From the NCBI RefSeq assembly GCF_000152745.1, contig NZ_CH672428.1:75718-139717 (forward strand): 64,000 bases of DNA, written 5' to 3'. Both the position numbers and the translations under genes were made by a program. The DNA is from Oceanicaulis sp. HTCC2633 (lineage in GTDB: Bacteria > Pseudomonadota > Alphaproteobacteria > Caulobacterales > Maricaulaceae). The notes beneath the pieces are model-generated. The model was given only the letters and a program-made list of their open reading frames with translations. It was not told the origin of the DNA and made no database searches. Below, piece after piece: positions 45,673 to 46,162 of the stretch (the stretch's first letter is position 1; each line of letters begins with the position of its first letter).

Positions 45673-45760
45673 TCGCTTTCTGAAGCCCTGGAACAGCATC
45701 ACCCGACCGGCATGGGTTCGCCGGACAAACCGTCGAATGACAATCTTGAACCCAAACACT

Positions 45761-45795
45761 TGTCATCCCCCGCTTTATGCGGGGGACCCATGCCG
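45761..45795 (+). repeat. Left palindromic repeat of the GIY-YIG unit
   Basis: Begins TGTCATCCCCCGC and ends CCATGCCG. It contains a perfect 7-bp hairpin CCCCCGC/GCGGGGG (45767-45773, 45779-45785) with loop TTTAT. It matches the reverse complement of 46128-46162 at 32 of 35 positions. Confidence 0.85.
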
Positions 45796-45835
45796 TGACA
45801 TTGCCGAAAAACCCATCGGCGGCCATGCTGGCGAC

Positions 45836-46078
45836 ATGTACTTCGTCTATCTCATGGCCAGTCAGAGAAACGGTACGCTCTATTGCGGCGTCACCAACGA
45901 TCTGCTGCGCCGGGCGTATGAGCACCGCGAAGGACTGGTTGAGGGCTTCACAGAGCGCCATGGCGTCAAACGGCTCGTCTGGTTCGAGCCTCATGACAGT
46001 ATTGAACACGCCATTCAGCGCGAGAAACGCATCAAGAATTATCCACGTCAGTGGAAGGTCAATCTGATTGAGGCTTAA
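45836..46078 (+). CDS. GIY-YIG nuclease, C-terminally truncated by an in-frame stop
   Basis: 80 residues of a single-domain URI-type GIY-YIG nuclease: MYFVYLMASQRNGTLYCGVTN is the GIY...YIG region, LLRRAYEHR has the conserved Arg, and EGFTERHGVKRLVWFEPHD and AIQREKRIKNYPRQWK follow. Relatives usually continue after LIE(E/R) with NPxWxDLY-like residues. Here, directly after LIEA and a TAA stop, the same frame reads NPEWADLWN before a TGA at 46118, so a sense codon appears to have become TAA. The loss removes only the last ~14 residues; activity is uncertain. Flanked by inverted palindromic repeats. Confidence 0.8.
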   Translation: MYFVYLMASQRNGTLYCGVTNDLLRRAYEHREGLVEGFTERHGVKRLVWFEPHDSIEHAIQREKRIKNYPRQWKVNLIEA

Positions 46079-46127
46079 AATCCTGAATGGGCGGATCTCT
46101 GGAACTGTCTCTCCCTCTGAAAGCGAC

Positions 46128-46162
46128 CGGCATGGATCCCCCGATTAAAGCGGGGGATGACA
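46128..46162 (-). repeat. Right palindromic repeat of the GIY-YIG unit (inverted copy)
   Basis: On the plus strand it reads CGGCATGGAT, then a hairpin CCCCCG/CGGGGG (46138-46143, 46151-46156), then ATGACA. In reverse complement it begins TGTCATCCCCCGCTTTA like the left copy, with three differences in 35 bases. Confidence 0.85.

Follow-up and report, generated by a model that had tools for sequence, protein, structure and literature searches.

Which enzyme moves the short palindromic repeats that enclose a small nuclease gene in the alphaproteobacterium Oceanicaulis sp. HTCC2633, and could it be the nuclease itself? The gene lies in a 64,000-nt stretch of this genome (contig NZ_CH672428.1, positions 75,718 to 139,717), here called the window, in which an earlier note had described two near-identical inverted 35-mers, each forming a hairpin, around a single GIY-YIG gene. 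Repeat finding, folding and a match to the PF01541 domain confirm this description, and the locus comprises the following features:

45706-45742, minus strand: third, degenerate REP copy with a TTCGACGG-type stem, its tag facing the next REP (from repeat finding and folding)
45761-45795, plus strand: left REP, with the tag TGTC outward, a stem with CCCCCGC, a TTTAT loop and a gene-facing tail CCATGCCG
45836-46078, plus strand: GIY-YIG nuclease gene of 80 amino acids, with TAA at 46076-46078 (PF01541, E = 3.3e-14)
46128-46162, minus strand: right REP, the inverted partner of the left REP, with its tag outward

The left and right 35-mers differ at 3 of 35 positions (32/35 identical) and are part of an extended inverted pair of 38 nt with 89% complementarity and a spacing of 332 nt. 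The left REP has the layout TGTC-ATCCCCCGC-TTTAT-GCGGGGGAC-CCA, then TGCCG, and 8 of its 9 stem positions pair, with A opposite C at the first and T opposite A at the second; the right REP folds into an 8-bp stem with a 7-nt loop. The hairpin of the left REP (-10.9 kcal/mol) was equalled in 0 of 200 shuffles, that of the right REP (-8.3 kcal/mol) in 3 of 200, and that of the third copy (-7.3 kcal/mol) in 12 of 200; a copy resembling this degenerate REP is found at the equivalent position in the sister genome G084. With the 35-base consensus of the family and at most 3 mismatches, only the left copy is matched in the window; none of 100 shuffles gave a match. Rfam at its gathering score returned no family at the window locus or in the stretch around L005, one of the gene-less loci described below. 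In passages of a survey by Di Nocera et al. (2013; PMC3733652), CGTC-tagged REPs are characterized by a CGTC or TGTC tag, a stem starting with AT, a loop of 4-5 nt, a CCA tail and an arrangement as inverted dimers, and they are placed mainly in Alphaproteobacteria, with the dRS3 repeat of Neisseria included as CGTC-1. The unpaired tag, the stem of 8-9 bp starting from AT, the loop of 4-5 nt and the CCA tail are all present at the window locus, so the term REP-like used in the earlier note was too cautious: this is more than likeness, and the repeat falls within the published definition.

The repeat is dispersed through the genome. Across the 3.17 Mb of the genome, a strict pattern matches at 9 positions, 2 at the window locus among them, and a general REP pattern gives 18 matches, with 0 matches for the reversed control in both cases; the earlier note had named a repeat occurring only here as grounds for dropping its proposal, and these matches remove that objection. 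At the seven loci with strict matches outside the window (L003-L009), each copy is one member of an inverted pair that spans about 90 bp and encloses no gene; the tags point outward, the spacer is of the CATGCCG...CGGCATG type and the partner stem has a different sequence. This dispersal mostly as inverted dimers is again a property of CGTC-tagged REPs. The 90-nt pair at L005 folds at -29.1 kcal/mol, a value equalled in 0 of 200 shuffles, and its centroid structure is branched and closed by the tags. The gene-less pairs of this genome are REPIN-like. A second REP type in the same genome (CTCTTTCCCC) flanks none of its three GIY-YIG genes as seen. Several of the pairs at L003-L009 have a second family of REP pairs (CTCTTTCCCCGCG...CCCAGAG) next to them; no nuclease of such type was seen in the window genome (G000), while the sister genomes G086, G092 and G095 do have a nuclease with repeats of this second family. 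A block of about 420 nt between REP pairs (L005:1638-2056) is repeated in the window genome (95%, G000:C1:1160015-1160432) and in G096, and it has no match in Rfam.

Tagged hairpins are concentrated at the edges of nuclease genes. A profile match to the nuclease at E <= 0.001 was obtained in 117 of 137 genomes of the family, and 190 pooled loci gave 183 distinct genes after duplicate removal, the window gene included; a broader contig search retained 80 named loci out of 186. The detector recognized [CT]GTCAT hairpins with loops of up to 12 nt, or up to 40 nt in a wider setting. With loops of up to 12 nt, hairpin density within 100 nt of the 183 genes reaches 4.60 per kb on the upstream side and 4.50 on the downstream side, compared to 0-0.07 per kb at 500-3000 nt from the genes and 0.002 per kb in shuffled sequence of the first 110 loci. 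A tagged hairpin lies within 300 nt of 119 of the 183 genes with loops of up to 12 nt and of 143 with loops of up to 40 nt. Over 179 genes, and counting only flanks with a REP within 300 nt, the REP lies a median of 26 nt upstream of the start and 14 nt downstream of the stop. A later set of 29 loci (25 with a match), from which 3 overlapping the first set were dropped, has a tagged hairpin in 22 of 26, at 4.74 per kb within 150 nt versus 0.08-0.10 per kb at 500-1500 nt. The counts of 143 and 22 answer the earlier note's reservation that GIY-YIG relatives might lack flanking palindromes.

As a universal mark of these genes, the [CT]GTCAT hairpin was rejected, being absent at 40 of the 183 loci despite loops of up to 40 nt. 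Most of the 16 detector-negative loci inspected by eye have palindromes with other tags, and for this reason a tag-independent comparison of flanks was introduced: taking a score of 40 or more as likeness, 139 of 179 genes have flanks that resemble each other, 4 of the 183 having been dropped for short flanks, versus 1 of 333 control positions 1.1 kb away at the same loci. The nearest REPs have tags outward on both sides in only 44 of the 92 loci having both. Searching from the repeats, tags-out pairs with an interior of 250-700 nt hold a GIY-YIG gene in 5 of 5 cases (G000, G003, G014, G016 and G407), which were picked by eye among the matches listed, with G014 and G016 fetched solely for their pair. 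Across all fetched loci, a set biased towards nuclease loci, 57 of 59 tags-out pairs enclose a GIY-YIG gene, and no nuclease was seen in either of the two exceptions. We regard it as virtually certain that the association between repeat and nuclease is real.

The layout is also found in Azospirillum, Rhizobium CIAT894, Shinella, Aeromonas caviae and Neisseria gonorrhoeae, the last with its nuclease gene inside a cluster of dRS3-type repeats, as well as in Betaproteobacteria, one deltaproteobacterial MAG and one Dehalococcoidales MAG. In a plasmid collection, 34 records have a nuclease match; of 13 loci examined, 7 have a detector match within 600 nt and 6 have none. The detector matches at a Photobacterium plasmid locus lie no nearer than about 190 nt past the gene; by eye, hairpins with variant tags are present at the Sphingobium, Novosphingobium and S. 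meliloti loci of this collection, and in Rhizobium K1/93 no hairpin was seen by eye in the 150-170 nt beside the gene. Three of the listed plasmids (NZ_CP119140.1, NZ_CP119142.1 and NZ_AP026896.1) have the size of whole chromosomes and look like them (Neisseria gonorrhoeae, 2.2 Mb; Aeromonas caviae, 4.9 Mb). GTCATTCTGAG- and GTCATCC-type sequences were noticed by eye close to GIY-YIG genes of Planktothrix and Spirosoma (plasmid), at L340 and L343, and by way of such loci the association may reach other phyla.

The enclosed gene encodes a compact nuclease of known fold. The window protein matches PF01541 with 53.4 bits against a cut-off of 22.6, and Y5, Y16, R26, H30 and E63, which we take to be the catalytic residues of the GIY-YIG domain, are invariant across 42 nuclease sequences, so that domain match and catalytic residues both identify it as GIY-YIG. 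Its reading frame stops at the TAA where relatives run on into a conserved NPxWxDL tail, and because this C-terminal tail is not encoded, the window copy may be impaired. A structure model was made for the L043 protein, 90% identical to the window nuclease (pLDDT 94.9). In Foldseek this model matched 1zg2 (E 5.7e-4) and 1ywl (0.033), then SLX1 chains (E 0.07-0.1, probability 0.99), and profile comparison of the nuclease with 1zg2 gave E 5.9e-9; by fold and sequence its closest kin of solved structure is UPF0213, followed by SLX1, a branched-DNA nuclease. The dN/dS of the nuclease is 0-0.14 over nine comparisons (one between genes of unequal length without gaps, and three with dS above 1), which indicates purifying selection. 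A reading as a defence system was rejected, there being a weak PADLOC match (UzuA) in 4 of the 42 sequences and a homing-endonuclease match in one, as was a phage origin, with a single weak match among 50,697 phage records. NCBIfam gave weak matches to three families, in 4, 3 and 1 of the 42 nucleases.

Within a single genome, the flanking repeat changes in step with the nuclease. Flank repeats are common to 13 of 17 same-genome nuclease pairs that are at least 70% identical, to 3 of 19 pairs at 60-70% and to 3 of 78 below 60%, in a test whose pairs are non-independent and whose score limit of 50 was chosen by us. The within-genome Spearman coefficient (114 pairs) is 0.58 for near flanks and 0.05 for flanks 765-1000 nt away; between genomes, in a random 35% of pairs, the relation is weaker (0.17 near, 0.08 far). 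Some of the close same-genome pairs are recent duplicates, which in turn points to cassette movement. Repeats with other tags, of GCGTTT, TTCCCGG, GCTGAAA and CTCTTTCCC types, lie beside some nuclease lineages, and those of the CTCTTTCCC type flank nucleases in G086, G092 and G095. The TTCCCGG...TCCGGGAYCCAT type occurs in 6 of 15 genomes of the genus and is absent from the other 9, the window genome included. With adjoining copies counted, it is present in 18, 16 and 22 copies in G085, G093 and G094, where a nuclease is flanked by this type, and in 6-7 copies in G088, G089 and G090, where no nuclease with matching flanks was seen.

In a separate branch of GIY-YIG genes (L010 at G000:C1:794200-794409, and L234-L250), none of 18 loci carries the tagged hairpin. 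The use of this branch as a repeat-free control was abandoned, with 4 of the 18 passing the flank-similarity limit and most owning a different repeat by eye; these genes are therefore usable as a specificity control only. That repeat, CTTCGGCTGGGCAAGCC...CGAAGGCTGTCACGCCGTAGC...GGCGGAC, adjoins most of the 18 loci by eye, and a tRNA-like sequence lies near a few of them. Possibly, this branch and its unrelated repeat family constitute a second nuclease-repeat system.

Nuclease and repeat also co-occur at the level of whole genomes. In 385 genomes of the class, with E <= 1e-25 set by us as the limit for a strong nuclease match and 3 pattern matches as the minimum for a REP-positive genome, 71 have both, 51 the nuclease only, 32 the REP only and 231 neither (OR 10.0, p 2.3e-20), and the corresponding counts among class genomes above 3 Mb are 52, 23, 25 and 70 (OR 6.3). 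Shuffling of labels within families gives an expectation of 63.3 +/- 2.0 for the 71 observed, with 0 of 5000 shuffles as high. The pattern covers one REP class and the profile search scored no more than 12 candidates per genome, so misses of both kinds are expected in these counts; a strong nuclease match is absent in 32 of the 103 class genomes with at least 3 REP matches, and 51 of the 122 strong-nuclease genomes have fewer than 3. Three REP-rich genomes, G404, G413 and G491, have 122, 170 and 88 REP matches and no strong nuclease match, for which loss of the enzyme, another enzyme or a search miss are the alternatives. Among the 20 family genomes without a nuclease match, 4 still have REP matches, G082 with 11. 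The presence of the nuclease is patchy, at 177 of 385 class genomes at any strength and 122 with a strong match.

Footprints of movement are found at several loci. In one genome, a 426-bp repeat-gene-repeat duplicate (L192 and L193) has edges exactly at the outer palindrome ends and unrelated flanks, and thus presents one block with defined ends in two unrelated contexts, as a transposable element does; no target-site duplication, of the kind left by classical (DDE) insertion sequences, was evident by eye at the edges of these two copies. Homology between L029 and L176 (77% protein identity) is bounded by CGTCATTCCGG...GGAATGACG, and in several other close nuclease pairs it spans little beyond the gene. 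The earlier note had also counted the lack of an empty site in any strain as grounds against its proposal; occupied and empty sites do exist in other genomes, though none is established at the window locus. In Azospirillum lipoferum 4B, an arrangement of REP pair, gene and REP pair lies between sufB and sufC (617 nt), and the same gap in A. ramasamyi, A. oryzae and B510 (95-97% identical) is 91, 87 and 129 nt, with no REP seen by eye in these three relatives without the gene. At a Sphingobium site, TomMM7A and TomTYG46 have REP-gene-REP (460 and 457 nt), whereas TomTYG64 and TomTYG74 have a solo palindrome and TomTYG72 has neither; a deletion between repeats would account for the solo palindrome equally well. 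The L193 site spans about 600 nt in G025 versus about 70 nt in the sister species G024 and G027, where an identity of 67-71% leaves the exact position of the junction uncertain. The window cassette itself is inverted in G084, with its neighbours unchanged. The L005 site has a gene-less REP pair in the window genome and another repeat type with a nuclease in G096; as a case of gene-less insertion it was rejected, the pair being absent in G084 but the divergence too great for a clean empty site.

Taken together, these observations favour the reading, with a probability of roughly 0.7, that the locus is a minimal mobile element in which a GIY-YIG nuclease acts on its own repeats and drives their spread, with the gene-less pairs as its dependants. 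That the nuclease acts on the repeats is likely, that it drives their spread is reasonably probable, and a branched-DNA step in the mechanism is tentative. The earlier note's proposal of a nuclease-driven element draws support from the co-variation, the cassette edges and the lack of a RAYT-type transposase in the genus; from these we infer that the nuclease recognizes the repeats and that its cutting causes their spread. In the most economical account, the repeat-nuclease-repeat unit would be autonomous and the gene-less REP pairs non-autonomous, depending on it much as REPINs depend on RAYTs. A REP pair that is extruded or lies on single-stranded DNA would fold, with a branched base closed by the tags (TGTCAT/ATGACA), and the SLX1-like GIY-YIG domain would cut at the branch of the folded pair. 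Host repair would then copy the REP, or the whole REP-gene-REP unit, into the break, with recombination via a second REP and capture at a fresh site as the two possible routes. To our knowledge, GIY-YIG enzymes are hydrolytic, and we know of no strand-transfer step in them. This counts against the reading, as do the REP-bearing genomes without a nuclease match, the nuclease genomes with few REP matches, the second REP type of the window genome, the absence of an evident target-site duplication, the ambiguous Sphingobium palindrome, the missing tail of the window copy, the mixed tag orientation at the 92 loci and the plasmid loci without a detector match.

Several of these footprints could also result from homing, in which the nuclease would cut gene-less REP sites and repair would move the gene between existing REPs, the REPs themselves spreading otherwise. 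This is possible, if doubtful. It would account for the L005 site, with its gene-less pair in the window genome versus another REP type and nuclease in G096, for the Sphingobium site that is either a solo palindrome or REP-gene-REP, and for a cassette present in both orientations at one locus (window versus G084). GIY-YIG domains are found in homing enzymes such as I-TevI, and enzymes of the I-TevI type are a weak fold match to the nuclease model. The Azospirillum site, however, is without a visible REP in the three close relatives and the 426-bp cassette lies in two unrelated contexts, so insertion apparently also takes place where no REP was present beforehand. That the small GIY-YIG proteins serve the host in DNA repair, as UvrC/Cho-like nucleases with the repeats as passive neighbours, is unlikely. 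Passages of a study of Caulobacter crescentus do propose a repair function for COG2827 genes, of which one has an SOS box (PMC1839093), and purifying selection on the nuclease agrees with such a role, but a flanking repeat that changes with the nuclease inside one genome, close flanking across classes and a duplicated cassette ending at the repeats would be unexpected, and the patchy presence of the gene also argues against it.

Movement of the repeats by a RAYT or other transposase, with the nuclease gene as cargo, is highly improbable. According to passages of the 2013 survey (PMC3733652), RAYTs are believed to mobilize GTAG-type REPs, and Y1 transposases are present in 25 of the 137 family genomes, but Y1_Tnp (PF01797) has no match in 15 genomes of the window genus, REP-bearing ones included, and the same passages describe CGTC repeats as absent from the flanks of tyrosine transposase genes and as associated with other transposase genes in just a few, fortuitous cases. 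We would give very little credence to the hairpins as terminators or RNA-stability elements of the nuclease gene: they lie near its start and stop, and REPs are often thought to be transcribed (PMC3733652, in part), yet the repeats are also present at other places in the genome as pairs without a gene, lie upstream of the gene with about the same frequency as downstream, and form the borders of a duplicated block.

For CGTC REPs, the passages of Di Nocera et al. (2013) name no dedicated transposase and leave the mobilizer as an open question. On balance, we lean towards SLX1-like GIY-YIG nucleases as the missing mobilizers of CGTC REPs and of families with other tags, in Proteobacteria and perhaps beyond. 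They would define a class of self-spreading elements of about 400 bp with a single-domain hydrolytic nuclease as its only gene, whose dependants would include the neisserial dRS3, and the L010 branch may have repeats of its own. A widespread REP superfamily thereby gains a testable candidate enzyme, and as both enzyme and substrate are small, cleavage is directly testable. If true, this would add to the mobile elements a kind that needs no transposase-type strand-transfer enzyme; it would suggest why the repeats occur as inverted pairs, and it would provide a function for many small GIY-YIG genes that are now labelled UvrC-like or hypothetical.

Among known systems, the UPF0213/COG2827/SLX1-like proteins (YhbQ, YazA, PDB 1zg2 and 1ywl) have fold and size in common with the nuclease described here, and the literature passages on them make no mention of the repeat association. 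A link between GIY-YIG proteins and REPs was not met in the listed titles and abstract openings of open-access papers. GIY-YIG homing endonucleases (I-TevI and free-standing relatives) have the catalytic domain in common and possibly a spread via cutting and repair, whereas the nuclease here is about 95 amino acids without a separate DNA-binding domain, the repeats flank both ends, and no intron was noticed. The CGTC-tagged REP superfamily shares tag, stem, loop, tail and inverted dimers with the window repeat and differs in that a GIY-YIG gene lies between the repeats here, while passages of the paper report no enzyme (PMC3733652). REP/REPIN and RAYT systems (TnpA-REP, IS200/IS605-like Y1) likewise consist of dispersed inverted pairs with one enzyme gene inside its own repeats. 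Here the repeats belong to another superfamily, with a TGTC tag in place of GTAG, and the gene between them is a GIY-YIG nuclease in place of the non-homologous Y1 (HUH) transposase, of which the genus has no match. The locus thus appears to work like a REP/RAYT system, yet it is no member of that group because its tag and its enzyme are both of another kind.
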